A DNA stretch of 64,000 bases from Thuidium tamariscinum. Taxonomy: Eukaryota > Streptophyta > Bryopsida > Hypnales > Thuidiaceae. The stretch is from positions 12,276,001 to 12,340,000 of the forward strand of contig OX344751.2 in NCBI GenBank assembly GCA_947034885.2, written 5' to 3'. A model generated the notes under the pieces. The model searched no databases. It was not told the origin of the DNA and saw only the letters and a program-made list of their open reading frames with translations. Both the position numbers and the translations under genes were made by a program. Of the stretch, positions 22,325-50,299 are shown one piece after another (positions within the stretch are counted from its first letter, which is position 1; the number at the start of each line of letters is the position of its first letter).

Positions 22325-22381
22325 ATTGCTCAGGGGATTCGAACCCTAGCCGTGACGGCCTTGCCCAGTGCAATAAGCAAT
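22325..22381 (-). other. tRNA-like fragment with a perfect B box inside the hAT 3' region
   Basis: Read on the minus strand, this 57-base stretch ends with GGTTCGAATCC, an exact RNA polymerase III B box (22335-22345). The outer ends pair as ATTGCT/AGCAAT, like an acceptor stem, and GCCGT/ACGGC forms a short middle hairpin. It is too short for a functional tRNA and lacks a normal anticodon arm, so it is either a relic of a tRNA or SINE, or coincidence. Confidence 0.3.
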
Positions 22382-22458
22382 CCCCCCCACCCCCAACTAA
22401 GTTAGTAAGTTGAATAAAACTTGGAATTGAAAACTTGCCGTCATAATGGAAACGGAGC

Positions 22459-25002: not shown

Positions 25003-25894
25003 GGACTCTCCCAACGCAGCAGCTGAAGACAGCAAGACAATTGAGGAAAACGAAAACTTCACGTAAAAGCACAAGAGGAGAAGACTCATCTGCTGTAGAA
25101 TGTCACCGAGCTCCTCAATTTATCTCCGAGGGTAGGGAAGTCCGCAGCGCAAGATCGACAACTCAAAACAGTCAAAAATCAGATGAGAACAACACATTGC
25201 CAAATTCAGGAGCAGACAACATTCACATCTAAAATTCCTTTGTCAGATCCTAAATCTGAAAACAATGCCTTTGTCAGCAAAACCTTTGCAATGTAAACGT
25301 CGAATTCTAATTTTGTGAATGCGCCAGCCTTGGATCCACCACAAGCAAACAAGAGAACCCTAACCCAATTCTAGAAAACGGACAACTTCGCAATTAAGGA
25401 ACGATCACTGCAATTGTGGGCTACTCCGTAGCTCTAAGCAAGATTACCTCACGATTAATTGAAAGCGCCAAAGATAAACTTCCTGATTCAAAGAATCCGA
25501 GCAACCTACAACACAATTGCACATGAGACGAAATCACAGCACCTGATCAGCGCAGCGCAGACAATCCAGCGGCGCACAAGCGCTTGCACAAGTCGAGTTG
25601 CAGGCGAATGATCCGAGAACATGGGGCCCAAGAGTAAATGAACACTGGCGAGGGAGGGAGAAAGCTGAAGAGCACTGGCGAAGCAGGTGAAAAGTGCCAG
25701 GGGGGAGCAACGAGAAGATGGAGAAGACAGCGCGCCACGACGGGAGCCCGGGCGGCTGAAGTGGCCCCCCCGCCACCTGGCAGGTCTGTGTCAGGCGACA
25801 AACAGGTAAAATTTTTTTTTTTTCGTTTGTTAAATTCGCCAGGTGAAAAACTGGGGTAGTTTCTGGCGATTTTTCGCCATTAAAAAAATCACTG

Positions 25895-31780: not shown

Positions 31781-31974
31781 AGCTTCGATTGGAACTCTAG
31801 TTTTTTACTTCTAGTATACATTTATTGAATGTTAGTTCTTAATTTTATATTTTGAGTATTTTATTTAAATCACAATGTGTGATTATAAATGTAGAATGAA
31901 GATTTTGTGATAGAAAAATTAGCTTGGGATTTGATGATAAAGGAGAGTGTGAATGGCAGGGTTGCTTCCATCGC

Positions 31975-32450
31975 GTCACGTCCGTCCGTCAGGATGTCCG
32001 TCCGCTGACGTGACGGGGAGCCGAGCGTCCGTCAGGATGAAATTCACGACAGAATCCGTGACAGAGGATGAAAAATCGTGACAGCGGTCATGGACGCCCT
32101 CACGGACGACCTCCGTGGACGGCCTGGAAGGACGTGCTCGGTGGACAGTTCCGATGGACGGTCCTGGCTGACTGGATGGCTTGGATGGACACTCTGGGTT
32201 CTGCGGACGGTCCGGATCCGGTGGACGGTTTTAGGGGACGGCCCCGCTCGCGGGGTATGGACGGCCCCGATGGACAGGACGTCCAGTGGACGGCCTGGAC
32301 GAACGCCTCCAGATCGACGGTCTGGGTACGGTCTATGCTTGGGAAGGACGGCTTGGATTGAGAGGAAGGTTGGACGGCCTGGGTTCGATGGACGGCCTGG
32401 CTGTGCCGTCGACGGTCAGGATGGACGGCCTGGGCTCCGTGGACTGGAAC
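31975..32450 (+). repeat. GC-rich GACGG repeat block A (left subterminal)
   Basis: Dense variants of GGACGGCCTGG, GTCCGTC and GACGGT on both strands, beginning about 20 bp inside the left end of the giant hAT. hAT transposases bind short repeats near the ends, so this block and the one at 48240-48610 are candidate binding regions. Frames reading through it are artefacts of the repeats. Confidence 0.8.
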
Positions 32451-32616
32451 TCTTTATTTGTAAGACTTAAAAGTCTGAGTTCATATTCGCAATCAAAATT
32501 TTCTCATTAGTCTATGAGGTTTAACCATCTCTCAAAAAATAATTTCCCATGGTTTTGTATTTTAGGCCTTCCATAGTCTAAATATAATATATATTCTGTA
32601 TTTAAAAAAAAGGTTT

Positions 32617-33870
32617 GTGGTGGTTTGAATCAAAAAAAAGGAAATGGTTTGAATGAAAATAACGTTAATGGTTTGGAATTGTGAATAAAAAAAAATGTAA
32701 AACTGGTTTTGAAAAAAAATGTGTTAATTGTTCGAATAAAAAAATTATGGAAATGGTTTGAATAAAAAAAACGTTAATGGTTTGAAATGTTGAATGAAAA
32801 AAAAATATAGAAAGGGTTTGGAAAAAAATGTGTTAATGGCTCGACCAAAAAAATTTGGAAATGGGTTGGGAAAAAAATGTGATTAGGGTTTGACTAAAAG
32901 AAATATGGAAATGGGTTGAAATGTTGGAAAAACAAATTTAGAAATGGTTTGGAGAAAAAATGTGTTAATTGTTTGACTAGAATAAATATGGAAATGGTTT
33001 AGGGTAAAAAAATGGCCAAGTTTTGAGTAAAGAAAAACGGTAATGGTATAGGGTGTTAGAAAGATAAATATAGAAATGGTTTGGAAAAAAGATGGGTTAA
33101 TGGTTCGACTAAAAAAAATATGGAAATGGTTTGAATCAAAGAAAAAGAAAAAGGAAATGCTTTGAATTAAAAAAAAGTTAATAATTTGAAATGTTGAATA
33201 CAAAAAAATATAGAAATGGTTTGGAAAAAAAATGTGTTCATGTTTCGACTAAAAAATATATGAAAATGCTTCGAATAAAAAAAAATATGGAAATGGGTTG
33301 AATAAAAAAAAAGGCAATGGTTTGAAAGGTTGGAAAAAAACTTATAGAAAGGGTCGTGAAAAAAAATGTGTTAATGGTTTGACTAAAAAAAATATGGAAA
33401 TAAGTTGGAAAGAAAATGTGTTCAGGGTTTGATTAAAAATAATATGGAAATGGTTTGAAAAAAAAAACTTTCATGGTTTGAAATGTTGAATAAAAAACAT
33501 TTAGAAATGGTTTGGAAAAAAAATGTTAATGCCTTAATGGTTAAGGCTCAAATTGGAAATAGTTTGAATCAATAAAATGGGAATGCTTTGAATAAAAAAG
33601 AACGTTGATGGTTTGAAATGTGGACGACAAAAAAATATAGAAATGGTTTAAAAAAATGTGTTCATGGTTCGACTAATAAAAATATGGAAATGGGTTCAAT
33701 CTAAAATATGGAAAGGGTTTGAATCTAACAAATGGAAATGGGTTAGGGTAAAAAAATGGTTATGGTTTGACATGTGGAAAAAAAAAATGTGGAAAAATGC
33801 GGTGGGAAAAACTTGGGTTAATGGTTTGATTAAAAAAATTCGAAATGGTGGGAATCAAAAACAAAAGCAT
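32617..33870 (+). repeat. AT-rich minisatellite (ATGGTTTGAAT-type), plus orientation
   Basis: Roughly thirty short units of the kind AATGGTTTGAATAAAAAAA, AATGGTTTGGAAAAAAATGT, TTAATGGTTCGACTAAAAAA and ATGGAAATGG alternate in a loose higher-order order. The same motifs recur in reverse orientation at 39240-39620. No gene is present. Confidence 0.85.
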
Positions 33871-34221
33871 ATATACTTGTGGCATATGTAAAAAATAGAA
33901 TTTTGGCAATTTTTAAAAGTGAACTTACAAAATCTACTTTAAGTGAAAGTATGGCATTGGATTTAAATGAACTTGTTGCACATACATTTCAAGCAAACGT
34001 ATTGAGTATTCTTTTCATTTGTTCATGGTTAAGTTTTCAGTTTAAGTGTTTAACAAACAATACAGTTGTACGAGAAAAATGAAAATGCTTCATTGCCCAA
34101 AAAATGTACTTTTGCAACATGAGCAACAAACGCTCGTAAATGGTCGTCATAGCCAAATACTATTTACAATACTAATATACTATACATCCGTCTAATGGCC
34201 TAACTCATCACCAGAAGGTAT

Positions 34222-36585
34222 TCAACCTTGTTCTGGTTCTACAATGCCTCTGCCTATACTATTTCTCAAAAAATCTTGCAATCCTTCTCTAGATTGCAAA
34301 CTGTTCAACGTAGCCACTACGGTCCGATCATATCGATCGTGCAAGTAGGAAGAAATGGTTGACAACATTTGCACCTCATTGAACGTAGTGTCTTCGATGA
34401 ACCTCATTTGTGCCTCATGATCCATGTCTTGGAGTATTCCGATAGGATTTCCACTGGAGTCAAAAACCACATTCTCTGGATGTGGTTGGCGCACGAACTC
34501 CTGTCGGTCCAAGTCCCAATGGCCACCAGCAAGTTGGCCAAAAAATACTCGCCGCCCTGGATCACCCGCACTAATCAGCTTCTTGCACACCTCCGTAATC
34601 TCCGCATCATCGTTCCACGGAATGTCTTGCACGCTGCGCACGGCGAGGTGTCTACTGTCATGGCCCCACTTCCACATCCATATCATGTCATTACCCCAAC
34701 TCCCTCTATTCTCATCGCCAGGCAAGTTCTCTTCGTTCAACTCGAAGTGTGGGGGCATGTAATCCTCCAACCCAAATTGGACGTACAACCGCCGGTGTAA
34801 AGGAGCCTTGCATTGTGCGCACCGCTTTCTTGTGACCATGTGCGGAATGAGACATCCGGGGTGGTACATATGTCCACACGTTCCAAGGCAAAATCCACCC
34901 TCGGGTCCAAACGGTTCCATGCAAATCGTGCACGTCGTTCCATCCTTCACAAACTCGGGAACTATGGGCCACAGTAAGGGGGCATTGCCTTCTCTATCCA
35001 CGGGCCCGTATCGATATCTCGCGGTGTTGAATTGGAAGTCTAGATGCGGATGCCCGTCCCAATCAATGCTTGCATTATCGCGATTTTGGGGCAATGTAAC
35101 TGGAAACATATCCTCCAGTCGGGCCCACGATGTCAAGCCAAAATAACGTTGGCTACCATCTCTAAATTCTGCAGCTATTCTCCTGACTTCACGCTGCAGT
35201 TGTGCGACCTCGTTCATAGCCAAAGTGCATGCCAATCTCATGTTGCTCATGGCAAGCAACTTTTGCTCCCTCGTAGTTGACGTTTGTTGCAACAATCTAT
35301 CCTTCATGGCATTTACAAATGCCAACTCGTCCTGTAGTCCCTCCAAAGCCGCTGATACAGTCTCCATGTTGGCCTTGGCCTCATTGCACTCGCCCTCTGC
35401 ACGCTCCGCTCGTGCCACAAGGGCATCGTATGCCACGCGCTCAACGCTTATGAACTCTTGGCCCAATGCATCTGTTGATTGGGTTGCCGCATTTGAACTC
35501 TCACCACGAAAATGTGGTGTTGGGAATATACCATGAGGCCGCACCCGGCGCACCGTCAATGGGTCAGCTGGCTCAATTAGACCATATGTGGCCCGCTCCA
35601 CGACCTCATCCAATGGTGGAGTGCCATCCGTGCTTTGGCGACGTTCATGTTCAAGCAAGTCAATGTTACTTGCTAATAACTTAGCATTCGTTTCCTCCAA
35701 AGCCTTCACTCGTGCGTTGTGGGCTTGTACCTCCATCTCGTGCCTTCGCTCAGCTTCTGCACCATCCTCACGCAGCTTAATCACCAATGCACGTAATGCC
35801 TCTAATTCCCCATTTGCTCCAAATACTTCATTAATTGTCATGGACGGGGGAATTGGGTGAATGGCGAGTGGCATGGGCTCGCTTGGACCGGCAATGGGCA
35901 CCTCCAATTCGGGAGCCACTGGATTTTGTTCGTTGGCGCCTTGAGGTGCATTGTCGACCTCCATGGGGTCCGCGGCCGCCGCTTCGTCCCCTTGTGCCCC
36001 AGCCACTCCTTCGCCTTCCAATTGCACTTCAGGATTTGGTGGAATTCTACGGCTTTTAGTAGGGAAACGGCCGCCCCGTTGTTTAGCCGGATACGTGTTC
36101 CAATCCACGTCCTTGCCCAAAAAAACCTCCGCATACGCCATTTGACACAATGCGAGGGTCCCATCCTTCTTCGAGAGGGTCCCCCAAAGTGCCAATGCCA
36201 CCTCGGTCAACCGCTTCTTGAACGTTGGGTGTACGCAATACTTGATCAATGCAACGCCAGATCGCACTTGCGTCTCATTTCTCTCCCGTGGAAAATGGCG
36301 GTTGATGTGGGCCCAGTCCACGTATCTCTGACATGTGGTGCGGGTCCATGGCTCAAGCGCCTGTTCCCACCCGTGCCCGGCCAAAACTTCTCCAGTGTTG
36401 AAAGTCGCCCAGTCTACAGTGCTCCTGTTCCCACGACGCCTCCTGTGTGGGGGTTCACCTTTATGGGTTACCATCTCCTGGTTTTCTACCACTGGGGGGT
36501 GATTTCCAGCAATTACCACCTCCTGGTTCTCTGCCATGGGGGGGTTCTCTACATGTAGTACCATCTCTCCAGGGTTTAAGGCCAT
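34222..36585 (-). CDS. Coiled-coil RING-H2 protein carried by the giant hAT (787 aa)
   Basis: Likely an E3 ubiquitin-ligase-type protein; target unknown. From the ATG at 36585: a basic N terminus, then an uncharacterised folded-looking region with WATFNTGEVLAGHGWEQAL. Next come an acidic/Pro stretch and coiled coils near residues 257-313 and 380-478. A RING-H2 finger lies near 549-597: CTIC, later CGHMYHPGC, later CAQC, giving the C3H2C3 ligand pattern. About 190 more residues follow. The frame is also open to a GTG at 36606, but ATG at 36585 is the first Met. TTGTGTGCAG just before the ATG looks like a 3' splice site, so a 5' leader intron is possible. The intact 2.36 kb frame implies recent selection. 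It is a typical neither of hAT elements nor of any plant RING family I know. Confidence 0.85.
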   Translation of the reverse strand: MALNPGEMVLHVENPPMAENQEVVIAGNHPPVVENQEMVTHKGEPPHRRRRGNRSTVDWATFNTGEVLAGHGWEQALEPWTRTTCQRYVDWAHINRHFPRERNETQVRSGVALIKYCVHPTFKKRLTEVALALWGTLSKKDGTLALCQMAYAEVFLGKDVDWNTYPAKQRGGRFPTKSRRIPPNPEVQLEGEGVAGAQGDEAAAADPMEVDNAPQGANEQNPVAPELEVPIAGPSEPMPLAIHPIPPSMTINEVFGANGELEALRALVIKLREDGAEAERRHEMEVQAHNARVKALEETNAKLLASNIDLLEHERRQSTDGTPPLDEVVERATYGLIEPADPLTVRRVRPHGIFPTPHFRGESSNAATQSTDALGQEFISVERVAYDALVARAERAEGECNEAKANMETVSAALEGLQDELAFVNAMKDRLLQQTSTTREQKLLAMSNMRLACTLAMNEVAQLQREVRRIAAEFRDGSQRYFGLTSWARLEDMFPVTLPQNRDNASIDWDGHPHLDFQFNTARYRYGPVDREGNAPLLWPIVPEFVKDGTTCTICMEPFGPEGGFCLGTCGHMYHPGCLIPHMVTRKRCAQCKAPLHRRLYVQFGLEDYMPPHFELNEENLPGDENRGSWGNDMIWMWKWGHDSRHLAVRSVQDIPWNDDAEITEVCKKLISAGDPGRRVFFGQLAGGHWDLDRQEFVRQPHPENVVFDSSGNPIGILQDMDHEAQMRFIEDTTFNEVQMLSTISSYLHDRYDRTVVATLNSLQSREGLQDFLRNSIGRGIVEPEQG

Positions 36586-36785
36586 AGTACCTGCACACAA
36601 TGCCACAACACGGTATGTATGTACAGATGACTATGCTCTGCCTCCTGTTGCGTGAGGGCAACTGGAATGTGGCAAAGCAATAGCCAAATGCTTGACTTCC
36701 TCCCGAATTGCAATGCAAAGCTTTTTTCAAGCTAGGACAGAGCAACTCAAGAGAGAAAGCAAGGTTAATTGTCACTGAATTTGGG

Positions 36786-36792
36786 ATTTATA
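36786..36792 (-). promoter_or_regulatory. TATA box of the RING-protein gene
   Basis: On the minus strand the sequence reads GAGTATAAATCCC, a good TATA box about 200 bp before the ATG at 36585. GACGG repeat block B begins immediately upstream. The order (GC block, TATA, leader, splice acceptor, ATG) matches the kinase-like gene at 41716. Confidence 0.6.
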
Positions 36793-36865
36793 CTCCCCAT
36801 TACCAAGCCTCGTTAGGAGTGTTAATTTGTGTCTAATCACATCGCCATGCACCACCTGGAGCCGT

Positions 36866-37640
36866 TGATGCGGACGGCCATCGACGGCTGGGGCGTCCAG
36901 GGAGCGTCGACGGAGGTTCGGGAGGCCGTCGACAGCTTCGGGATGACGTCACAGAGGTCGTCCACAGGTCCGGCGCCGTCAACGAGTTCGAAAACACTCA
37001 TGAGTTCGAAAATCCATAATTACTCCGCCGAATTGCAAATTCGATGGCCAAAAATGGCTCTTCGTGACGGCCTGCCCGTGGTCTTGGACAGCCACTGTTC
37101 CGCTGTGGACAGCCTGCCCGGACAGGTCGACGCTCCGGCCCGCAGCCAAATTCGTTGCGGACGGCCTGCCCAGGTCCTGGACGGGCCCGTGTTGCTGGAC
37201 GGTTTTCTGGACGCCCTCCGTCCCTGTGACGGCCTGCCCAGGGCCTCGACGGCCAGGGAGGACTGACCCCTCTTTGCCCCTCCGGAGGGTAAATGTAAAA
37301 AATTCCCCCCTAATTTGTGCCGATTAAATTTTAGATTTCAACACGTCCCCTAGCTAAATCGAGGTCTCTGATTCCAAATAAGAATTCAGAATTTGTAAAA
37401 AAGAATTTGTGTGAAAAATAAAATAAATTCCAGGGTTTTCTGCAAGGGTAAAAAAGGGGCAATAGAGGGGTCAGTCCTCCCTGTCCGTCCTCGACAGGCC
37501 CGTCTTCCTGGACGGTTTTAGGGACGCCCTCCGTCCCCGTGACGGCCTGCCCAGGTCCTGGACGGGCCCGTCTTCCTGGACGGTTTTCTGGACGCTCTCC
37601 GTCCCCATGACGGCCTGCCCAGGTCCTGGACGGGCCCAAT
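36866..37640. repeat. GC-rich GACGG repeat block B with an internal inverted repeat
   Basis: Two GC-rich stretches (36866-37265 and about 37475-37640) flank an AT-richer gap. They are inverted relative to each other at the gap: GGAGGACTGACCCCTCT on the left, its complement at about 37467-37483. Around 70 bp units containing CTGGACGGTTTT, CTCCGTCCC and GACGGCCTGCCCAGG recur at about 37187, 37497 and 37567. The block lies directly upstream of the RING gene promoter. Confidence 0.8.
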
Positions 37641-37649
37641 AGGTGGGCC

Positions 37650-39239
37650 CAATATATATTGAATTTCAATTAGACAGGTGGAATCCAATTAGACAGCCAG
37701 GATCCAATTACGCAATTGGTATTCATTTAGGCAGTTGAGATGCAATAAGCTGTAAGACAGCAGAATTTTAATGTGGGTGAACTGGTGAAGATTGCCAATG
37801 CAGTACCTGTATACTATAATTTTTATTGGAGCTCAGTGAGTTAACATTCACAGCTTGCATTTCTTTTTAAAAAATTTTGGGATTCATTCATGGTTGTAAC
37901 AAGTGTGTGACTCATTCAGATCTTGTATTTCTTTTTAAATTTTTTTGGGATTCATGATTGTGACAAGTGTGTTAGCCATGTATGCATGGTAGGAGGCAAA
38001 GATTGCACTTATTTAAATTAAGAGTTGATTTGCCTTTTTCGTGTATGTCTTTAGATGAAAATATTTTTAGTTTATTTTTCAGTCAAGGAGAAATAGATGA
38101 GGAATCTAATACAAGTTGTTTCATATTTTTTGGAAGAAAAATTGAATTAATTATTAATTTTCAAACACAATTTGTCATAGGACCCTATTTGTGATCAGTA
38201 AGCCTTGAAAATCTATACATGCACAGTTTCTAAAAGAATCTGGTTTGGTGAATAAACTAGTAATGCAACATGTAAAAAATGGTTTGAAATGGTTTCTAAA
38301 TGTGTCCCTTTCAAAAACTAAAATGAATTCTTCAATTAATCATTATTTCAAAACAATTTCACATTTGAAAGAAGGTAGTTTAACAACCATTTTTTATTTT
38401 GAATAAAATTAGTAGACACCTATAAGTACACTTAGTTACGATTGAATCCATTGTAACTCTAAAACCATCCATTCATATAGTAAAAATCAAATCTTAGCAT
38501 GCTTCAATATAATCCACAATTAGTTTCCTCACAATGAACTTTCCAATTCAGATTTCAGACCCTCCTATAGTCCTATTAAGCAGATAAAAAAGCCTGCATA
38601 GTTTATTAACCTCCGTGTGAGCTTCCTACCATAATAGTTGATTTGAGAGCAAGAGGTCCTTGAACTTCTTCATTTTAGATGTTAGAATGGATTTGCAGAC
38701 TTACTGATACTTGTGTTTTTAAACACAATCGGCTTATTAAATTCCCTAAGTTTTCCTTATTATATAAATGAATGTGAATATGCTCTTGTGCCTTTAAATT
38801 GGTTTTAAATATTGCATTAATTAGGATTGTATACTATAGTTTAATTTCTCTATTGTGTGCTTTGTTTTCTTATAAATGGTGAAATATAAATAGTTGTAGC
38901 TTTGATTTTTGATTTTCAAACTCTTTAGTGGCATATAGATAGCATATGCTTTGCGTTTCACCATGTTCTTAGTTCATCAAAATCCTTGAAGCTCACATGT
39001 TTCCTTGTATACAATGTTTTTGATCTTCTCAATATTTTGTAATTATGAAATGTAGAAAAAAAATAGGGTGTTCAAAAATAGTCCTTCAAAGAATTTACAA
39101 AAGAAAATAGGGTACTCTAAAATACACTCCGGTAGCTTTATTTCTACTAATAGGGAGGGAAAAAAACATGAGAAGGACATAAATACCCCCCCATTAAATA
39201 CCCCATTATCGCACGTGGTTACCAAAAGATAAAGGGGGT
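37650..39239. other. Non-coding interior of the giant hAT
   Basis: AT-rich with no gene. The part at about 38050-38170 is similar to the interior of the MITE at 9838-10255 (shared AATATTTTTAGT, GAGGAATCTA, TTTTCAAAC). A copy or fragment of that family is therefore embedded here; I could not define its ends. Confidence 0.5.
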
Positions 39240-39620
39240 GAACCCCCGAGTCTGTTATTCAAACCATTCCCATTTTTTTTATTCAAACCATTTCCACATT
39301 TTTTTCCAAACCGAATCATTTCCATATTTTTTTAGTCGATCCATTAACCCATTTTTTGGTCCAAATCCCTTCTATATATTTTTGCCCAACACCCGAAACC
39401 ATTAACGTTTTGCTTTATTCACACCACTTCCATTTTGGGGATTCAAACCTTTTCCCTATTTTTTTTAATTGAACCATTAACACATTTTTTTCCAACCCAT
39501 TTCCACATTTTTTTTATTCGAACAGGGCTCGACAATTTCTTTCCAAACCCTTTCTATATTTTTTTGGGGTAACTTTTTTAACCCTTTGACGTGTATTTTT
39601 GGTTCAAACCATTAACACAC
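39240..39620 (-). repeat. AT-rich minisatellite, reverse orientation
   Basis: Units such as ATTCAAACCATTTCCA, TTTTTTCCAAACC and CCATTAACACATTTTTT are the reverse complement of the motifs at 32617-33870. The two blocks are thus inverted relative to each other and bracket the RING gene and its promoter block. Confidence 0.8.
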
Positions 39621-40843
39621 TTGCGGAATTCTAACTCTTTCTTCTAGGGTTTATCATACACTTCGGCAAAGAGAGGATTAGAGCGGTTTAGGGTTCCGCA
39701 GAAGAATCTGAATTCTGAAAATTGGTTGGTGCCCACTAACGGAGTCTTGCTTGCCAGTGCCCCCGTCCTAAACTCCTAATTAGTGCTCGCCATTCACTTA
39801 TACTTTCATAATTCATAGTTTCATAACTCATAAGTAGAGTACATGACTACATGACCAGAATATTATGCAATATAGTAACATACTAATATGTACATGTAGT
39901 ACTAATCTAATTTCCTAAAAAATACATGCCTAGTCGGATGGCTCCCGAATTTAAAATTGAGAAGTTTAAATCCCTACATATCCGTAGGGCAACTTCTAAA
40001 ATTTAGGGTCCATCACTTCAGCCATTCTCGATATGAGATGAAGCACTGGAAGGCAATGTAAAGTTTTAGCCGTGTACATTACACACTACCCACCAACAAG
40101 TTTAGGATCATCCAATTCTGCCATTGAAACGAATTTTGCATAATATAATCAAGCATACCAAATGTGGATTTCACATAAGTCAAATTCAGTATTTGGTGAA
40201 TTGTTTCATTCAAAACTCATGGTTTAGCATGATAATTGATTATAAAACATTGGTGATGAATTAGCATTAATTTGCAAAGAGGAGATATGTAGGAAACATC
40301 CATATGCACATCTTTCATACCAAAAAACATCCTAGATTCCTAGTAAGTTACAACAATATAATTGGGTTGAAGAATTCAATTAGGCATTTTATGTGACCCC
40401 ATTTTGTAAAATAGATGTATGTACGCTTGAATTAGATTTAGGCAAAGTCATTGTACGGAAATGATTTAAGTTCCTCAAGGAGTTATAGTGTGACCATCAA
40501 ATAGCAAATGCTAATTAAGCCGGATTAAATTATTAAAATTAGCTCCTATTTCCTAAATTTACGGGGGAGAATGAAATTAGATGGAAAGGGAGGAAGTAGA
40601 GCTTTTTGACGACACAACTGAGAACGGATACGCATCAACCGAAGAGGTATGTGTTTAGACTAGAACCAATAAGTTTAATCATTTCATGTTATTTCTTTTA
40701 ATTACTTCAAAATTTGCAAAATTAGATTGACGCTAGGAAAATAAAGATCAATTACCGAATACAAATTATAATGCACTTCTTAAGTTATTAAATTACTAAA
40801 CTAGACATTTTACCCTCATTTACGCAAAAGTAAAAAGGAACTT

Positions 40844-40878
40844 AAACCCTAAACCCTAAACCCTAAACCCTAAATCCT
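40844..40878 (-). repeat. Interstitial plant telomere-type array (AAACCCT)4 plus one variant
   Basis: Four perfect AAACCCT units run from 40844 to 40871, followed by AAATCCT. This is the complement of the TTTAGGG telomere unit. It lies inside the giant hAT about 180 bp upstream of block C. In plants short telo-boxes also occur in promoters, so either a repair relic or a regulatory element is possible. Confidence 0.9.
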
Positions 40879-41059
40879 AAAACCTTCGGTTGGGCAAGGG
40901 CTTTAGGCTGGGTTTTGGACCTTCTCAAAATTCAGTGTCAGCCCTTAGATGGGCGGTTTCTGGCCTGTTACCTTATTACCTTGTAGAGGAATTTCAGTTG
41001 CACGAGGCTTGCCATTAAGTCTTTGCTGGCATCTTCACCGCCCTGTGCTTCCCCGACGA

Positions 41060-41512
41060 TCCCCTTAATGGTTCAGAATTCCCGGGACGCCCTGTGGGGT
41101 CGCGTGGACGGCCTCGTTCCACGACGGACCCCCGAATTCCCAGGACAGCTTGTGCGTCCTGTCGACGGTCTCGCAGTTCCTCGACGGTTTCTGGACGGCT
41201 TCGAAATTCCCGGGACGGATGGGTGCGTCCCGTCGACGGCCTCATCGTCCTCGACATTCCCCTCGACGGCTTCCCAATTCTGAGGACGGCGAGCGTGTCC
41301 CCTCGACAGTCTCGTAGTTCCTCGACGGTCCCCACGACGGCTTCGAAATTCCCGGGACGGATGGGTGCGTCCCGTCGACGGCCTCATCGTCCTCGACATT
41401 CCCCTCGACGGCTTCAACGCGTCCCCTCGACGGTCTCGGAGTTCCCGACACCCCTCGACGGCTTTCGAGTTCCTTGAACGGATCGGCCGTCCATGCGACG
41501 GCTCGCCAACGA
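41060..41512 (+). repeat. GC-rich GACGG repeat block C
   Basis: Repeats of CGACGGCCTC, CCTCGACGGCTTC and TTCCCGGGACGG. A unit with CCCGGGACGGATGGGTGCGT occurs twice, about 140 bp apart. The block ends just before a TATA box and so forms the upstream region of the kinase-like gene. Frames across it on both strands are artefacts. Confidence 0.85.
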
Positions 41513-41522
41513 CTATATAAGG
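41513..41522 (+). promoter_or_regulatory. TATA box of the kinase-like gene
   Basis: CTATATAAGG is a near-ideal TATA box, placed directly after block C and about 200 bp before the ATG at 41716. A start about 30 bp downstream would give a leader containing the possible small intron at 41663-41714. Confidence 0.75.
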
Positions 41523-41662
41523 TGGGCCAAGTCCCCCACTCTGCACGAGTCTCTCCTGCTCTGACGGTGCTCTCTTGCCCTGGATTGGTTGCAGTCCTTG
41601 CTTGGGAGCGCGGGTGCTTGCGAGGAGGCTCGGCTGAGGAAGGGGGGATAGTTTTCACATTT

Positions 41663-41714
41663 GTGAGTACTGAATCCTAATTCCTTGGTTTTACCATCGC
41701 ATATTTTTTTTCAG
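41663..41714 (+). other. Possible 52 bp leader intron of the kinase-like gene
   Basis: It begins GTGAGT and ends ATTTTTTTTCAG, one base before the ATG. The acceptor is excellent; the intron would be very short for a plant. The same acceptor-next-to-ATG layout occurs before the RING gene (TTGTGTGCAG) and the transposase (TTTGTGCAG). Confidence 0.45.
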
Positions 41715-41715
41715 A

Positions 41716-43377
41716 ATGGACGGGCGAGGTGCGTCGAAGCGCAAGGTTGATGAGTGGTTTTCAAGCATCGGAGATCCTGTTGGTGAGCAGTCTCCAGAGT
41801 CCATTGACTGCGTATCAGAGGCAGTATTGGCCGGAGAAGGGGTCGGTGGTGCGGCTGGAGGAGAATCTTCGGGGGCCAAGAAAAAAAAGAGCAGGCGGAG
41901 GCACAAGGCTACGAATACAGACGACTGGCCAAGGAAGGCTGCGACCAGGAAAGTGCAAGAAGTGGCATTGGATTTTTTGGAGCAATATACGATTGCTCAA
42001 TTGAATACGACCTACGTCTCGCGTGGATTGCAAGGGGTGGAGACAATTAAAAAAAAATTCACCCACATGTTTTGGACAACAATGGGCGAGGATGAGTGGC
42101 TTGAAGATCGCACAAAGGAACACTTCCGTCGTTGGCTTGACGAACAAGTGCAAACTTGTGTTTTCAACATCGCCCAAGTCGCCGCATCGGTAAAGGGCTT
42201 CAAACGAGATGTAGCGCCGAAGCAACAAGCATTGCATTTGTTGCACAAAAAGGTGTATTGGTGGCATGACGCAATGCGAGCGCTGTCTTCCAGCAATATC
42301 CGCTCTGCCCCATGGTTTTAGCAGAGCCAAAGCTTGTCCCTAGGCCAAGCGGGTGCGGGAGGAGTGGTATTTCTTGAACGAGGAGTGGTGGTGGTTCCAT
42401 TGTCAGGCCACAACAAACAAGGGGGGCACGGGAGGGTGCGTAAAGTGAGCCTCCAAAATTCAAGGCACATTCCCCCCATGATGGAATTGGCGGGCAAGAC
42501 AGCCCTATATGTGGATCAATTGAAGAAGTCGCGAGAGAAGTTGTCCATCGAAGCTTTGGTTTGTCCATGTAATCATCCAGGGGTCATAAAATTTTTTGCT
42601 ATAAATGACATGACCATGGAGTGTTATTCTCAATGGTGGAATGGAGGAACATTGGGAGCCATGTTCGCATTGGACCAGAAAAACCGAGATTATGCTGAGA
42701 TCGGGGAGCTTGCCTACCATGCAACTCCACAGACGATGCAAGAAGCCAAAAGACTCTTGGCTTATCGTAGAAACCGCACCGAGCTTGCATGGGCGTTAAT
42801 TTGCATCGTGGATGCGGTGCAACAATCTTCGGTGCTCCACAACGACATCACGCCAGAAAACATCATGTTGCATTTTCCGAATGATGATGGGCGAACAGTG
42901 TGGATTGGGCTATGTGATTGGGGAATGGCTAGTCGTATCAATGAAGAAACCCATTCTTTGTACCAGTTTCAATGTGCAAGCCAAATGCGGGCTACACGTC
43001 AGAAACGTTGGTGGGTGGCCCCTGAATTGATGTATGTTCCTGGAGAGGCGGGCACTTCGGTATCCCCCACTCGTGCAGATGGGGCACCGTGTGTTAGTAT
43101 ACATACAGACGGATATGCTGTTGGGAAGCTTGCGGAGAAGATATAGAAGAAAGACCGCGAAAATACGGAAATGCTTCCCGACCATACAGCGTTTGGTACA
43201 TTTCAAGCCACATTGGGCGAATTGTGCAAAGAGGACCCACTACAACGACGCACGGTAACGTACGCCGTGGGACGAATTAGTGGCGCCCCCTTATTTTGGA
43301 CTCCACCCGTTGATTGCTACCGCGAGGCCCGCAAGGAGCAAGCACTTCTACAACAACAAGCAAGGAATGAAGATTAG
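41716..43377 (+). pseudogene. Protein-kinase-like gene of the giant hAT, two in-frame TAG codons (553 codons)
   Basis: One frame runs from ATG 41716 to the stop at 43375-43377, interrupted by TAG at 42319-42321 (codon 202) and 43144-43146 (codon 477). The first 200 codons encode a basic N terminus (KKKKSRRRHK) and an uncharacterised helical region. The kinase-like domain follows: GGHGRVRKV as glycine-rich loop near 235, SIEALVCPCNHPGVIKFFAI as helix C and strand 4, HNDITPEN as catalytic loop near 375, DWG near 401, and WVAPELMYVP as the APE region. The usual catalytic-loop Lys is Thr, while the Asp and Asn are kept. A polyadenylation signal (43489) and a strong TATA box show a complete gene unit. 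Both TAGs could come from CAG by C-to-T change, or be read through. Confidence 0.8.
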
Positions 43378-43488
43378 AGAATAGTATTTTAGTGGCAATG
43401 TAATCGTAGACGTACCTTAGTACTTGCTTTTACCACAGTATAGTCCACGAACTTTGCGTCACTGAATTTTGTACTAACTCCTTTTTGA

Positions 43489-43494
43489 AATAAA
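43489..43494 (+). terminator. Polyadenylation signal of the kinase-like gene
   Basis: AATAAA lies about 110 bp after the final stop and about 100 bp before the nested TTAA element, a normal position for a plant 3' end. Confidence 0.5.
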
Positions 43495-43593
43495 TATATG
43501 TAAATCTTTTTGTTCCATTCGAGTATGATTCCGGTGAGTGGATTTGTGAGTAGTTCTGTCCCTTCGTAAATTTTGGACTGAATGCCATGTTAA

Positions 43594-44512
43594 CCCCTAA
43601 AGGACCACGGCCGTTTTTCAACCCAAAACCACTCAAAACTGCCATTTTTGTTCCATTCATCCATGAAAAACAAAAAAACTAAATTTTTAGAATCTAACCA
43701 TAGGATCTTGAACTTTACTTAACTAAGATGATGTGGTGAAAATTTCATGAAGTTTGACCGTATAGATAGGAAGATATGAGCATTCAAAGTTGGAAAACAA
43801 AGTTTTCTTAAACACTAGTTTGCAACTTCAAATGACTTTGTCCTCCATTTATGTAATCTTTTTGCACTACAGACCTTGAATTAAAAAATTTTTATTGAGA
43901 AATTGAGCTAAGAGCTTAGGAAAAAAAATTCACAAAATAAAGACTTTTTGTCATTCTTTAAAAAATTGTCAAGTAGATGTAGGTCCAAGATTGAAAGAAA
44001 AACTAAATTGCAAATATCTCATAGATGGAATTGAAACACAATAATCCCAATGGTGAGATTGTTCTAGAAAACAAAATCAACCTTGTCCAACAATTTTTTT
44101 TTTTAAATTGTGGAAATTGCATTCACAAATGAATCCTAGAAGTTATTTTTTCAAGAAGATGCTTAGATTGCCCGAAAAACAAGATTGTTCATAACTTTCA
44201 CATTACTAATCCAAATGGAATGAATCAAAGCTTTACTTGTAGACAAAAATATAATCTATAAGAAAAAAAAATTATTTTTTTAATTTTGAAGTTTCTGTAG
44301 ATTTTTTTTCTGCCCGGCAACATAAAAATAATGTTTATGATGGCATAACTTTTGCTCCCGGTCACCAATTGAAAAAAAATGAATATTTCCACGGAGCTAA
44401 TCAGTTTTTTTATCTTATGTGAAAATTTCAATAAAATTCATTAAAAATTGAAGTCACAAGTACTTGCCCTAATTCTTAAAGTTCCCCGAGGGGACTCTTG
44501 GTCCTTTAGGGG
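43594..44512. mobile_element. TTAA-bounded non-autonomous element nested in the giant hAT (919 bp)
   Basis: Both ends carry CCCCTAAAGGACCA (14 bp perfect inverted repeat) and are flanked by TTAA (43590-43593 and 44513-44516). A sister copy of 925 bp lies at 59926-60850. The interior is AT-rich and non-coding. TTAA target duplication with a CCC terminus fits piggyBac; that assignment is inference because no transposase is present. It inserted between the kinase-like and transposase genes. Confidence 0.85.
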
Positions 44513-44897
44513 TTAATTCAGTACTTTCAATCATTTTCTCCATATTCCAGATTACATTTGTTTTCTTGTACATGGCAAAATCCATAATGATCTCAAAATA
44601 TCCAAGCATGTAGGTAACCAGCTTCGAAGAATGAATCCAAATTTAAGAGTATAGAACACATGGCAAACGACAAAGCAAATATTTCCATTTCTTGGGACAA
44701 ATATCCATAAATGGATCCGTTGTTGCGTTGTAGAATTTGTGACATGTGAAGATAAAAAATTTCTACCCATGCGCCCTACATGAGCACAGGAAGCATGTGT
44801 AGTATTTATAATTAATGCCGAATTTCACATGCAAGGTATTCAGCCTTACACAATATTACATAAGATGACATGGAGACATTTTTTTCCCTAGATGCTC

Positions 44898-47800
44898 TCA
44901 ACGTCTTCCACGTGTACGATTAAGAGCCATGCTCCTTGCAGCAGCCTCTCGCGTGGTTGCTTGATTGTCTTGAGGTGCAGGTGGAGGACCTCTACGAGTC
45001 CCTCTATAATCACTATCTCCCGGAACTTCACCATCTTCACCTATACTAGGACCCATGGATTCATCATCATGATTGGACGTTGCCCTACCGACTTCGCTTG
45101 GTGAGTTGTCAGGGCTGTCTGAGCCTTCACCTACTATAGAAGCCAATTTGCGGATTGTTCGCCCTCCTACTCCATCTCCAGCGGTATCCACACTGGGCCC
45201 CGTTGGTCCAGGGAGAAGACCTTCGCGGAGAAATGGTATACTCGCCGCTTCTTCCCTTCTTAGCCTTCTACGTGTTCTTCTACTCACTCGTTCATTGGTA
45301 GGGCCTTCTTCACGTGGCCGCGGGCGTCGATTAGTAGTGCGTGTAGGCGATGCAACGGGTTGTTCTAAGGATGGAGGTGCATTCCTTTGCTCGGTCATAT
45401 TTAGAGTTGGGAAGAAACCGGCCAATCGTGTACCGACTGATGGAGTTTCTTGGTTGGGGCGGACTCTAGAAGATGAAGGCCGTGCTGAAATTTGGACGGG
45501 TGGATCATCCAAGCTAGGCGCTTGTGGTCGCACGCCGATCGTGTCTCGAAGCAATGTGCGAAAGTCTATCTCGACACCAATGGGGGATCTGTGGCTACGA
45601 GTGTTCCGCGCCACTCGGGGATCTGTGGCAACGACCTCATCTTCGCCTTGTCTTTCTACCACAACGACATGTTCATGTCTCCGGGTACGCATTTCTTCTT
45701 CAATCGGCCCTATAACCGGCGAAGGTGGGGCTTCAACCCCTTCGTTTTGATTTCCACCACTTGACCCCGCAATCGATGTACGTGGCATCCATGACGGACT
45801 GCCATCATTTCCCCCGTTGTCATTTCCATCATTATCCGCGCCATCAAAGTCAAATACGGACTCGTCAATTAGGGGACCCCTTTCTTGCCTTTCACCCAAA
45901 GGCCGAAATGGTGGATCATCATCGCCATTGGAACTGTCGTCTGAGTCATCGTTGTTAGCGTCTGACATAACCGAACCACGATCCAAGCCATCTGATTCGG
46001 TTGTCATGGAATCTTCGGACAACATGTTCTCAGTGTACCATCGTGCTGCATCCGCCGCACCCCTTTCCCTGAGAGTCCTCGAATTGGTATAAATGTAAAC
46101 CAATTCCTCCGCGCGCTCAGATGTCAATCTGTTGCGAGACTTGCTGTGGACAAATGAATACATGCTCCAATTGCGTTCGCATGATGATGCGGAACATACT
46201 TGTGCGAGGATCCTTCTTGCAATAGGTGCAAGCGTATGAGCAGCGGCTTCGAGAAGATCCCACCATTCATGCGGCTCCAAATTCAAAGTATTCACATCGG
46301 GAAGTCCAGCGAACATGCCTCGGCGGTCTCGAAAGGATTGGTACTCAAACAAAGCGGCTGCATATCCCAACCCTCCAACTGCCAATTTGCGTAGTACTCT
46401 AAGAATGGCCTCCTTTGCCTCGTTATCGTCTATTAGTATAATTTCATCAAGGAGGAATGGATTGAGCAGGGCAGCTGCGTAGTGCAAATCAGTCTTCATC
46501 AAATCCCATCGTTCGTAAAACGCGTATTCAGCATGGTCCGCATAATTTGCCTCCAATGAAAATGGTCGATTCCTCAAAGCCAAAACATGCTTTTCTAGCT
46601 TTTTCATCACGATCCATGCTTTGCCCATGACCGGATGTTTTCCATCAAACTCTCGAAGAGCCACCAACACAGGCTCTACCATATGCACAAAGTTGAGACA
46701 CCTCCTCCAGAACTCGTCCTTTCGAACCCTACGTCGAACCTTTTCTGCCTTATTGTGTATTGCAGCATTCGAGGACCTCACATATTCGTTCCACTGCGGA
46801 TCATGGACTGTAGATTCCACGGCTTCCTTGACCTCGGCCAAACGCTCGATCATGAGGAACATGGTCGCAAAACGTGTCTCAATGGGATTCTTCAACATCA
46901 GGTTAGGAGAATGTCGTCGGAAAATGGCGAGTGGCATGTGATGCGTGCGAATGAATTTCACGATTGATTTTGCTTTCTTCACCATTTTGACCACCCAAAG
47001 TTGCTTGCCCCAATCTTCAAGTAGAAGGTCAAGTGCATGCGCGGAACAACCTTGGAAATATAGGTGAGGGAATTCGCGAGTAATTTGAGTACCAGCCAAA
47101 CGCATGTTTGGCGCATTGTCCGTACAAACTTGCACCACATTCTGTCCCCCCACTGCGTCAATGTAATCGATCATGCGATTAGCCACATAAACAGCGTCTT
47201 TGCTTTCACCTGTAGTGTCCACCGATCCCAAAAATACTTCTCCACTCGTGCACAACAACATTACATTGATCAATGGCCGATGGCTGACATTGTCCCATCC
47301 GTCAGAACATATAGTGACACCGTACTTGTGGATAGGCCCCCTTGTCTTCTCCGCTACCAGTGCAGCCACTTCCTCCTTTGTTGATGTCATGAGCTTCGTA
47401 CGTATGGCATTGTAAGGTGGAGGTTTGTAAAGAACTCTGGACTCGGAGGTTGATTTCAAGGCATCCACAAAAGCGGGGTGTCTCACCACATTGAATGGGA
47501 TATTTGCTTTGTAGAAAAACTTTGCCCACTTCTTGTCTAGTACTTGCTTCTTGGATGTGTCCATCCCTTCTTGTACGGATAATTGCCTCAGCGGTCGACT
47601 ATGGGTCGAAGAAGGGACAGGCGCCTCTGATGATCGAACTTGAGAATTTTGGCCCAAAGTATTTCCTCCCCCTCCACTAATTGAGATTGAAGCATTGGGT
47701 AATTCTTGATCACGTACCACCCTCGTTGGATTCGATGACGGTGATGTCACTTCCACATCATGTTCCTCTTCGTCTTCGGAGACCGTAGGAACATTCCCCC

Positions 47801-48005
47801 CACAATTGAAAAACATAGCCTTCACTGCTGCACTGGCCTTGTTGCACATTCTCACTCCGAGGAGGGTGTCATTTCGTCTATAACCCAAGTGGAAAAGCAA
47901 GCGATCCTTGCGGTAACTAATCTTCGTTTTGCAGAACTTACATTCCACTTTCCCATCCTCTTGTAGCCTGTACCAGGGTTCCCATTGTGTCCTCCCTCCT
48001 CCCAT
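44898..48005 (-). CDS. hAT transposase of the giant element (1,035 aa), intact
   Basis: Catalyses cut-and-paste transposition of the surrounding element. From the ATG at 48005: a BED-type finger with C22, C25, H39 and C54, then a DUF659-type hAT catalytic domain with TICSDGWDN (Asp near 235), VCTDNAPNM (Asp near 296) and CSAHALDLLLEDW near 320. The hAT C-terminal dimerisation domain follows around 575-650, with SASSCERNWS supplying the catalytic Glu. After about residue 660 comes an unusual 375-residue acidic, disordered tail ending in basic patches (RRTRRRLRREE). The frame is also open to a GTG at 48014, but ATG at 48005 is the first Met. TTTGTGCAG at 48032 looks like a splice acceptor, perhaps paired with GTAAGT at 48089. 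The frame has no lesion over 3.1 kb, so the element may be autonomous. Confidence 0.93.
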   Translation of the reverse strand: MGGGRTQWEPWYRLQEDGKVECKFCKTKISYRKDRLLFHLGYRRNDTLLGVRMCNKASAAVKAMFFNCGGNVPTVSEDEEEHDVEVTSPSSNPTRVVRDQELPNASISISGGGGNTLGQNSQVRSSEAPVPSSTHSRPLRQLSVQEGMDTSKKQVLDKKWAKFFYKANIPFNVVRHPAFVDALKSTSESRVLYKPPPYNAIRTKLMTSTKEEVAALVAEKTRGPIHKYGVTICSDGWDNVSHRPLINVMLLCTSGEVFLGSVDTTGESKDAVYVANRMIDYIDAVGGQNVVQVCTDNAPNMRLAGTQITREFPHLYFQGCSAHALDLLLEDWGKQLWVVKMVKKAKSIVKFIRTHHMPLAIFRRHSPNLMLKNPIETRFATMFLMIERLAEVKEAVESTVHDPQWNEYVRSSNAAIHNKAEKVRRRVRKDEFWRRCLNFVHMVEPVLVALREFDGKHPVMGKAWIVMKKLEKHVLALRNRPFSLEANYADHAEYAFYERWDLMKTDLHYAAALLNPFLLDEIILIDDNEAKEAILRVLRKLAVGGLGYAAALFEYQSFRDRRGMFAGLPDVNTLNLEPHEWWDLLEAAAHTLAPIARRILAQVCSASSCERNWSMYSFVHSKSRNRLTSERAEELVYIYTNSRTLRERGAADAARWYTENMLSEDSMTTESDGLDRGSVMSDANNDDSDDSSNGDDDPPFRPLGERQERGPLIDESVFDFDGADNDGNDNGGNDGSPSWMPRTSIAGSSGGNQNEGVEAPPSPVIGPIEEEMRTRRHEHVVVVERQGEDEVVATDPRVARNTRSHRSPIGVEIDFRTLLRDTIGVRPQAPSLDDPPVQISARPSSSRVRPNQETPSVGTRLAGFFPTLNMTEQRNAPPSLEQPVASPTRTTNRRPRPREEGPTNERVSRRTRRRLRREEAASIPFLREGLLPGPTGPSVDTAGDGVGGRTIRKLASIVGEGSDSPDNSPSEVGRATSNHDDESMGPSIGEDGEVPGDSDYRGTRRGPPPAPQDNQATTREAAARSMALNRTRGRR

Positions 48006-48239
48006 TGCTCCCACTAGTTCTTCACTTGAAACTGCACAAACAAAACAGGTTAGTATTCAGTTTGGATGTGATGTGGAAATAACACTTACTGCTTTCACAG
48101 CAAGTGTTCCTCCCACACACTCTTCTTGGACTTCACTCTAGTGCAATGGCTGTGTGCCAACCAGGTCATAAGAGCAGAGATCAGCAAGGAAAAGTGACCT
48201 TCAAATACACGGCTTGTGCTATGTACTGTGAAGGCCTGG

Positions 48240-48610
48240 CAGCAGTCGTCCAGTCGACGGCCTGTCCGTTGGCGCACTGTGGATAGCCGCGGACGGGACG
48301 TCGTGGCCGTCCTCGTAGACGCTCTGGCCGTCCAGCGGACGTCCCGCTGTCCAGACGACGGCCTGGCCGTCCCCGCAGCGTGGACGGACTCTGGACGCCG
48401 TGACCGTCCGCTGAACAGAAAACTGTCGAGGCGACGGCCTGGCCGTCGCGCCTAAACCCTAAAGCCGTGGACGCTCTGTCCGTCCACGCGACGGCCAGTC
48501 GTCGAGGCGGCCGACAGGCCGTCTGCGCGCTGTTGACGGACTTCATCCGCGCTGTCGACAACGCCGTCAGCATTCGGGACGGCCTCTGCCGCGTCCTGCC
48601 GCGTCACGAC
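48240..48610. repeat. GC-rich GACGG repeat block D (right subterminal)
   Basis: Dense CGACGGCCTGGCCGTC, GGACGTC and GTCGAGGCGAC motifs lie between the right end of the giant hAT (48669) and the transposase gene. It is both the right subterminal region and the upstream region of the transposase. It parallels block A at the left end, in GC content and in the GACGGCC core. Confidence 0.8.
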
Positions 48611-48774
48611 TGACGCGTCATGACATCCCGACGGGAAAAGCCCACGTCACGTCAGGATAGACAACCCTGGTGAATGGGGAAGTGATTGGAATCTTAGGTG
48701 GGGTCTTGGTGGGGGTATAGGCTGATGTACCCTACCCCTCACTTATGATGGGGAGGAAATTAGGGAAAAGATGC

Positions 48775-50299
48775 TTAGTTGGTGTGTGGAGAGAGGGAAG
48801 TGGGTGTGTGTGTTTTGGAGAATTTTGGCCGAATTTTGGCCGAATTTTGGGTTGATGTAGCTCATTGAGCATGAAGAATTGAGTAATGAAATTTTGGCAT
48901 GACATTCTTTGTGATTATAGCTTTTCAAAGAGTGTTTACAAGTTGGATTTGGAGTTGGAAAACAAAAGTTATGAGAGCTTGAAATTGTGAAGACCTAAGG
49001 ATCTCCATTGAGAGATCAGAGGCTTCAACAAGGTATAACTTTTGTAATACTTGTTTATTTGACTTGAGATTTAAAGGGATTGTATATCATTGTAGTAGCT
49101 TTTCAAAAAGTTATCACTCATCTGGTTTGGAGTTTGGAAGAGAAAGTTATGAGGAGTTGAAGGTCTGGAGGAAAATTAGAGTTTGGAAGGAGAAAGGTTG
49201 TGACTTGAAACAACCACAACTTTGGGTGTGTTTTTCATATGTCTTTGAAAATTCTTGTGGAGTTAGTTTGTAGAATTAGTTTGTAGAATTTCCTATCCAT
49301 AATGAGTTCATTCACTTCATTTGAACTCTTATTGAAGAAATTATAGAGTGTAGAAGATAGGAAGGAGTGTTACCTTTATAGTTTAAAAATCCGAGACTTT
49401 GTTCCTTGATATCTTTTGGACAGAGTCTTAGTTTCTCATGAAACTTTCTAAGATTGTGGATATTAGTTTGAGGAATCTAAATTGCTATTACACTTGCAAT
49501 TTGGATTTGTAGTTCAAAAGTTATAGAAAAATATAGAGGCAGTAGTTGGGTGCCAAGGGATTTGAGGAACCTCTACTTTGCACTCTAATAACTTTTGGAC
49601 AGTAGTTTAGATAGAGTTGAGATTTAAAGGGTGTTTTTCTTGTAAAGTTATCTTTTCAAAATGCTATTACGCTAAGTATTTGGAGACTTAAGCCATCTGT
49701 AGCATTAAAAAGAAGGTCGCAGCTAGTAAGAGGAGAAGTTTTCTAGTGTTCTTTGGGGTTCTTTGGGTTCTTTTGAAGACTTGAAGATTTGAAGGCCGTA
49801 CATGACGAGGACCTAGCCTTGTGTTGTGGCTTGTGGCTCGTTTTCATTTCTGTTATTCTCAGCCGGTTTTGGAGGCTAGTTGAAAATTCAATTTCTGCAT
49901 TGTAAAACTGTTGCGAGCCGTAGTTATCCAGTAAGCGCTTCATTTTGTGTTTGTGGCGACGAAGTGGAGTTAGTGGCCCACATGGTCGATCTTTTATGTT
50001 GTTCCTATTGATGAAAGGCGCTTCCTGGTCATCGTGGGTTTGAAGTTTAGAGGCCCATCATCCGGACGGTCACTCGTGTTGGCCGTCTCGTTTTACACGT
50101 TTGAAGCCTTGTTTCTTATTACACACCTTCACCCTTGGCCCTATAGAGCCAGCCGCAGGATAGACCAACGAAAGAACAAGTGAAGATTCAAGTGAAGATC
50201 AAGAGAAGATTCGAGTTTTGAAGATTTACCCAACTTCACTCATCAACGTGCAGTCAGACACCCTGTGTGTTCTTTAAACGCACTCCTCTCTACCCGACA
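48775..50299 (+). repeat. Left arm of a large inverted repeat (about 1.5 kb)
   Basis: The reverse complement of this stretch matches 50587-52475 almost base for base in the inner part (49560-50299) and with more differences outward. No coding frame is shared. The inner edge reads CTCTCTACCCGACA, so read outward the repeat starts TGTCGG. A TG start would suit an LTR, but no retrotransposon proteins are present. Confidence 0.9.

Follow-up and report, generated by a model that had tools for sequence, protein, structure and literature searches.

A 16.7-kb hAT insertion with two non-transposase genes in the moss Thuidium tamariscinum

Plant hAT transposons are usually a few kb in length and carry a transposase gene only. 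As plant hATs are usually known with a transposase alone, a 16.7-kb element on contig OX344751.2 of Thuidium tamariscinum, located within the 64,000-nucleotide stretch of DNA analysed here (the window), is unusual and raises the question whether DNA of this length, with a RING-H2 and a kinase-like gene besides the transposase gene, has been inserted as one unit and whether the additional genes are resident components or accidental passengers.

The element spans 31957-48669 (16,713 bp) and ends in the 8-bp terminal inverted repeats CAGGGTTG at 31957..31964 on the forward and 48662..48669 on the reverse strand, flanked by the target-site duplication GTGAATGG at 31949..31956 and 48670..48677, a perfect 8-bp match between left and right copy. 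The left repeat matches the plant hAT consensus [T/C]AGNGNNG (PMC6027215); a terminal repeat of at least 8 bp with the hAT consensus and a target-site duplication of 4-8 bp are both present. Past the 8 bp of CAGGGTTG, similarity between the two ends is weak. By itself CAGGGTTG is common, with four matches in the window versus 1.94 expected and four reached by 13 shuffles; a motif search of the window found none inside the element between its ends. Pairs of CAGGG and CCCTG with an exact 8-bp flanking duplication occur only twice in the window, at 31957-48669 and 51026-51386, and 200 dinucleotide shuffles yielded three such pairs with a maximum of one per shuffle. The boundaries of the 16.7-kb element are thus confirmed as genuine. 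A preliminary description of this DNA had recognized the matching termini and the perfect duplication, both of which are located on either side; its span of 31949..48677 was right as to the ends and counted in both duplications, which do not belong to the element proper. Equally, its proposal of one insertion event covering three genes agrees with the rarity of ends plus duplication in shuffles and with the position of all three genes inside. One hAT insertion of 16.7 kb with two non-transposase genes is therefore supported.

The second pair delimits a 361-bp element (51026..51386) with the same CAGGGTTG ends and the duplication AAACCGGC, a probable non-autonomous relative of the large element. 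An inverted duplication has this element in one arm and its empty site, a single AAACCGGC at 49862..49869 on the reverse strand, in the opposite one, so that this end type has been mobile in the window. For the 16.7-kb element an empty site was also sought in the inverted duplication to its right, but this begins about 100 bp past the junction; neither such a site nor a second full-length copy was seen.

Which genes, then, does the element hold? The transposase gene (44898..48014, reverse strand) reads inward from one element end and has an open frame of 1,038 amino acids with DUF659 (E 2.6e-35) and hAT dimerisation (Dimer_Tnp_hAT, E 8.7e-10) domains and similarity to Hermes (E 7.9e-6). D238, D299 and E613, identical in 10/10 sequences of an alignment that takes in 9 of 63 relatives, are presumably the DDE catalytic triad, as assigned from motif context. 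A TATA-like box was not found in the transposase promoter with the pattern used. The RING-H2 gene (34222..36606, reverse strand), with a TATA-like box near 36792, encodes a coiled-coil, E3 ubiquitin-ligase-like protein in an uninterrupted frame of 794 amino acids. Its zf-RING_2 score of 26.9 bits lies slightly below the cut-off of 27.3, all eight C3H2C3 zinc ligands are identical in 5/5 sequences, and comparison with solved structures gave RING matches, with RNF24 as the best (E 1.3e-5). The intact transposase and the intact coiled-coil RING-H2 protein described earlier are thus confirmed, the former with its presumed DDE residues and the latter with its eight zinc ligands.

The kinase gene (41716..43377, forward strand; TATATAA at 41514) is one frame of 553 codons with in-frame TAG at 42319 and 43144, and relatives with uninterrupted frames occur elsewhere. 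The Pkinase domain was found in 10/10 members of one alignment of kinase relatives; in another, DWG and APE are present in 11/12 rows, HND in 10/12 and HNN in one, the remaining row, P0076, diverging from the other relatives in the motif region. The structure models of two proteins are of low confidence (mean pLDDT 48.6 and 50.7). In the fold search with the kinase model all 50 listed of 996 matches are titled kinases or pseudokinases, and none of the 996 reached E 0.001; with a weak model and no fold match at this level, the kinase assignment rests on sequence. Recoding was considered, as both stops are TAG, and rejected: across the two TAG positions, close relatives have two different residues, and TGA ends the frames of the transposase, the RING protein and a glycosyltransferase, none of which contains an internal TAG. 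The gene is consequently read as broken, so that the kinase-like gene noted earlier is kept as kinase-like and is disrupted in this copy.

The ends and the regions upstream of these genes have a dense short motif in common. Of the 127 GACGG sites in the window, 91 fall inside the element, which makes up 26% of the window. A left subterminal array (31982..32428) holds 19 sites against a null mean of 4.3, reached in 0/500 shuffles, and a right subterminal array (48256..48634), located also upstream of the transposase gene, holds 17 against a null mean of 3.3, equally reached in 0/500. The RING gene is preceded by 23 sites at 36873..37633, in two clusters at 36873-37252 and 37485-37633, and the array upstream of the kinase gene lies at 41107..41510, with 20 sites in 41060-41510. 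The count of each of the four blocks, which were picked after inspection of the sequence, was matched by 0/500 shuffles. The internal GACGG blocks that had been noticed before are thus confirmed, and they lie upstream of genes.

The remaining internal DNA is heterogeneous, and some of its noncoding parts resemble repeats that are dispersed over the rest of the window. An A-rich degenerate tandem array of AAATGGTTTGAA-like units (32602..33865; families D1-D5) lies downstream of the RING gene, and a second array of such units in inverted orientation (39245..39622) matches 32958-33326 at about 70% over 380 columns. A short CCCTAAA run (40847..40874) is taken to be a plant-type telomere-like motif. 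A nested element of 919 bp (43594..44512) with a TTAA duplication and CCCCTAAAGGACCA ends, absent from the preliminary description like the 361-bp element and its empty site, accounts for about 0.9 kb of the total length; it either came later or was carried along, and by its structure may be a piggyBac-type MITE; an element with the same ends is present at 59926-60850. Rfam gave no matches and ARAGORN no tRNAs.

On relatives elsewhere, a kinase relative (P0071) and a transposase relative (P0008) have the same longest reported contig of 6,480 bp, a type of coincidence that arose in 0.93% of trials of a jitter null; by this indirect sign, these two relatives are probably linked in another genome. 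None of the RING relatives has a reported contig size in common with a kinase or transposase relative. An organism name is attached to 15/63 transposase matches, 0/4 RING relatives and 0/12 kinase relatives. Scans of viral contigs with the RING, transposase and kinase alignments gave 49, 22 and 62 pattern stretches, respectively, and no confirmed relatives.

We favour, at a probability of roughly 55%, the reading that 31957-48669 is one hAT element that arrived in a single insertion and holds resident accessory genes under motifs shared with its ends. The element would be a cut-and-paste hAT transposon, inserted once, whose transposase should recognize the CAGGGTTG ends together with the adjoining GACGG arrays, excise the element and reinsert it with an 8-bp duplication. 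The arrays may serve both as transposase-binding subterminal repeats and as a common control region of the promoters, with the kinase and RING genes expressed together with the transposase; such co-expression under shared arrays would make the two genes resident accessory genes rather than accidental passengers. Their favoured putative role is to regulate transposition or evade host silencing, whereby the RING protein might remove a host repressor or limit the transposase and the kinase might modify the transposase or host repair. As its kinase is broken, this copy would depend on intact copies for kinase function. More tentatively, and with confidence short of an even chance, a plant-lineage hAT family may have permanently recruited the kinase and the RING ligase, the three genes being co-regulated by the end-marking GACGG arrays in a self-regulating, VANDAL-like manner.

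A composite origin, in line with the fusion of several smaller elements that the preliminary description named as an alternative, appears rather unlikely. It would have a RING-bearing left and a kinase-plus-transposase right hAT-type element lying adjacent, with the outermost ends moving everything as a macrotransposon and the 8-bp duplication recording the last move. Consistent with it, the kinase promoter block at 41285-41503 resembles the right end (48447-48244) in inverted orientation, a weak similarity of 59.8% over 224 columns, the RING gene is flanked by the inverted A-rich arrays, and the 6,480-bp figure is common to kinase and transposase relatives and not to those of RING. However, internal CAGGGTTG is absent, and none of ten end pairs with duplications in the whole window lies wholly inside the element. 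Among 23 TIR-like rows from an end-pair scan inside it, with TTAA, TA or 3-bp flanks, none has an exact duplication of at least 7 bp; most join low-complexity A-rich arrays and two represent the nested TTAA element, the second shifted by one base. Furthermore, the gene promoters account equally well for the positions of the GACGG blocks.

That an ordinary hAT took up two host genes by chance, in a Pack-TYPE-like manner and without a role for the element, would fit the two stops that break the kinase, the resemblance of noncoding parts to dispersed repeats and the occurrence of Pack-TYPE hATs in plants (PMC8903248). We regard such capture as improbable: Pack-TYPE elements are non-autonomous with coding fragments, whereas a complete transposase and full-length frames occur together here, and GACGG arrays lie upstream of all three genes alike. 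Moreover, the kinase relatives in the scored list, with 56-87% identity, all come from sequences without an organism name, and one of them probably adjoins a transposase. Chance terminal matches or a misassembly could be invoked, given that CAGGGTTG by itself is not rare; such an artefact is highly improbable in view of the rarity of ends plus exact duplication in shuffles, a window without N and a transposase oriented inward from one end. Several points weigh against the preferred reading of one element with resident accessory genes: the kinase is broken, the dispersed-repeat matches of internal noncoding parts would be expected of DNA gathered piecemeal, neither a second full-length copy nor an empty site of the 16.7-kb element was seen, RING relatives have no contig size in common with the others, the 6,480-bp match is indirect, the GACGG blocks were picked after inspection and the transposase promoter gave no TATA-like box with the pattern used.

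How does the moss element compare with known systems? Ac carries subterminal repeats, and the VANDAL transposase belongs to the Mutator-like superfamily, which is distinct from hAT. Ac/Ds-type plant hATs differ in having a few kb and a transposase alone versus 16.7 kb with two more genes here. They share the fit of CAGGGTTG to the consensus and the 8-bp duplication, for which PMC6027215 gives the rules, as well as the DUF659 and dimerisation domains and short subterminal repeats. The VANDAL elements of Arabidopsis (VANA/VANB/VANC) are likewise plant DNA transposons with accessory genes and dense short-motif arrays in noncoding DNA, and VANC binds a motif of this kind and counteracts silencing (PMC5735166). 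Among plant DNA transposons, Pack-TYPE elements likewise carry coding DNA, and hAT types are found among them (PMC8903248); the intact transposase frame sets the moss element apart from their non-autonomy. The giant fungal Starships resemble it in transporting accessory genes on a mobile element (PMC12134995). They differ in their tyrosine recombinase and far larger size, with no machinery in common.

The closest precedent bears on the previous suggestion of a new class of plant mobile element, which would call for further copies with this gene set. The element is more modestly a variant of a kind already described, as cargo-bearing hATs are known from ToxhAT, an element of 14.3 kb and eight genes including ToxA in fungal wheat pathogens (PMC6737239). 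Both are large hAT-type elements with a hAT-like transposase and extra genes between terminal inverted repeats and with nested elements, the RING and kinase genes lying here between the one end pair 31957-48669. ToxhAT has 74-bp ends, no identifiable target duplication and a cargo that includes ToxA, in contrast to the 8-bp ends, perfect 8-bp duplication and kinase-like and RING-like cargo of the moss element (PMC6737239). Among the literature matches listed, in which subscription papers are thinly covered, none showed a plant hAT whose cargo includes a full-length kinase or RING gene.

If the kinase and RING genes are resident, plant DNA transposons would bring their own signalling and protein-turnover tools, and the element would join VANDAL as a second testable case in which a plant transposon controls how it is itself expressed or silenced. 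The hAT machinery would then be able to move 16 kb and several full-length genes, so that gene movement would not be limited to fragments, and the motif common to ends and promoters provides a simple testable hypothesis.

The large hAT element (31957-48669; 16,713 bp) is flanked on both sides by GTGAATGG and both of its termini read CAGGGTTG. While CAGGGTTG alone occurs at about chance frequency in the window (4 versus 1.94 expected, with 4 reached in 13 shuffles), the combination of CAGGGTTG-type ends with an exact 8-bp duplication has been found for two pairs, and 200 shuffles gave three such pairs in total with a maximum of one each. The perfect 8 bp duplication with matching termini of the preliminary description is thus confirmed as a combination beyond chance. 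A broader scan for any exact 8-bp duplication around matched ends recovers 10 pairs in the window, including the large element and a 361-bp element, and also picks up several low-complexity pairs, so that it is the specific CAGGG test that carries weight.

The 361-bp element (51026-51386) shares the CAGGGTTG ends and is bordered by the duplication AAACCGGC. It is located within an inverted duplication (48772-50000 versus 52476-50887; outer 1.1 kb approximately 90% identical), of which one arm carries it and the other presents the same sequence with a single AAACCGGC and no insert. The latter arm is an empty site, for the 361-bp element only, and together element and empty site are an independent sign that CAGGGTTG ends move. 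As the inverted duplication begins approximately 100 bp past the right end of the large element, it provides no empty site for the latter. A partial further copy of the right end of the 361-bp element is located at 61589-61670. Elsewhere in the window, a second element, probably of hAT type and 3.8 kb long (22071-25894; duplication CTGCCAAG, CAGTGAAAATTTTA-like ends) contains hAT-like open frames in pieces, two of which were scanned with Pfam and gave no match, and a possible 287-bp element (11428-11714) shows the duplication GTTGGAGT and CAGGGTTTT-like ends. Open frames in pieces at 55823-57960 resemble a LINE-type reverse transcriptase by eye only.

Of the three genes described inside the element, the transposase and the RING-H2 protein have been substantiated. 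The transposase (44898-48014, minus strand) combines DUF659 with a hAT dimerisation domain, its profile matches the Hermes transposase, and D238, D299 and E613 are identical in 10/10 aligned sequences. Among the 63 relatives found, the nearest four show 56-70% identity by BLASTP; the 15 named by organism (14 entries from angiosperms and a single one from the green alga Coccomyxa) show 26-37% identity. The RING protein (34222-36606, minus strand), with long helices predicted in a low-confidence structure model, has four relatives with 42-52% identity by BLASTP, and all eight RING-H2 ligands are present in 5/5 sequences. Its Pfam score of 26.9 lies slightly under the curated cut-off of 27.3, and two of the four relatives carry the domain in precomputed annotation. 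The start of P0001, one of these relatives, and the untranslated sequence that precedes the RING frame are alike by eye (9/11 residues), a hint that this leader, too, is conserved.

The kinase-like gene (41716-43377, plus strand) is present, but its frame is not intact, being interrupted by TAG at 42319 and 43144. The 12 relatives found with a read-through query, the best 71-87% identical over the frame, retain the glycine-rich stretch, the N-lobe lysine and glutamate, HND, DWG and APE, except that P0072 has HNN and P0076 departs from the others; the Pfam kinase domain occurs in 10/10 members of the kinase alignment. Recoding of TAG is ruled out, as relatives carry different residues at the two stop positions. 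This copy of the gene is broken, with uninterrupted copies present elsewhere. The contig of P0008, a transposase relative, measures 6,480 bp, and this is also the length of the longer of two contigs represented by P0071, a kinase relative, which indirectly suggests that the two genes are linked elsewhere; under a crude null with contig sizes jittered up to 10%, any coincidence (12 kinase versus 48 transposase lengths) arose in 0.93% of trials. The RING relatives show no such size match, which says little because their contigs are short (2.7-6.3 kb) and 5 kb separate the RING frame from the kinase frame in the large element.

GACGG on either strand occurs at 127 sites in the window, 91 of them within the large element, which makes up 26% of the window. 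The internal blocks reported previously are borne out: 23 and 20 sites lie upstream of the RING and the kinase gene, respectively, besides 19 at the left and 17 at the right element end, the latter block lying upstream of the transposase gene as well (null means 2.9, 4.9, 4.3 and 3.3). Each count was reached by 0/500 shuffles, p-values being descriptive since blocks were picked after inspecting the sequence. TATA-like boxes precede the RING frame by 186 and the kinase frame by 202 bases; none was found before the transposase frame. A preference for CGG-containing motifs and binding to subterminal repeats are described for some hAT-derived DNA-binding domains (PMC8097297), and the transposase of the large element may bind GACGG. 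A palindromic insert (37248-37489; 33-nt arms, 88% complementary) sits within the array upstream of the RING gene. Outside the element, no GACGG precedes the glycosyltransferase gene, an intact glycosyltransferase-2 frame (13120-15207) that among solved structures resembles bacterial cellulose synthase chains more closely than plant CesA.

We favour, at a probability of roughly 55%, one hAT element with resident genes. Between kinase and transposase, a nested 919-bp element (43594-44512) with a TTAA duplication and CCCCTAAAGGACC ends is located, and a 925-bp element with the same ends and TTAA duplication is found at 59926-60850; by structure, both are putative piggyBac-type MITEs. Without the 919-bp element and one TTAA, the hAT would measure approximately 15.8 kb. 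The nested origin was proposed as an alternative; a form of it in which a hAT with kinase and transposase was joined to one bearing the RING gene would fit the weak, inverted similarity of the kinase promoter block to the right end (59.8% over 224 columns), but a search for internal ends with a duplication of at least 7 bp found none, and we consider such a fusion rather unlikely. A-rich degenerate arrays on both sides of the RING gene are inverted relative to each other, and a short CCCTAAA run, presumably of plant-telomere type, lies at 40847-40874; this run and the named transposase relatives are the grounds for regarding the sequence as plant-like. Resident genes and fusion are compatible in the long term, as a fused element can turn into a stable one.

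Precedents exist in the literature. The fungal ToxhAT, 14 kb in length, is like the large element hAT-type with several genes and differs in lacking identifiable duplications (PMC6737239), while Pack-TYPE elements carry captured coding DNA and are non-autonomous (PMC8903248). In a 2026 review on gene capture in plants, a term search does not retrieve 'hAT' from the main text (PMC13317346). The closest functional parallel within this literature is VANDAL, with accessory genes and dense noncoding motif arrays (PMC5735166). In place of the new class of mobile element initially proposed, these precedents speak for a variant.
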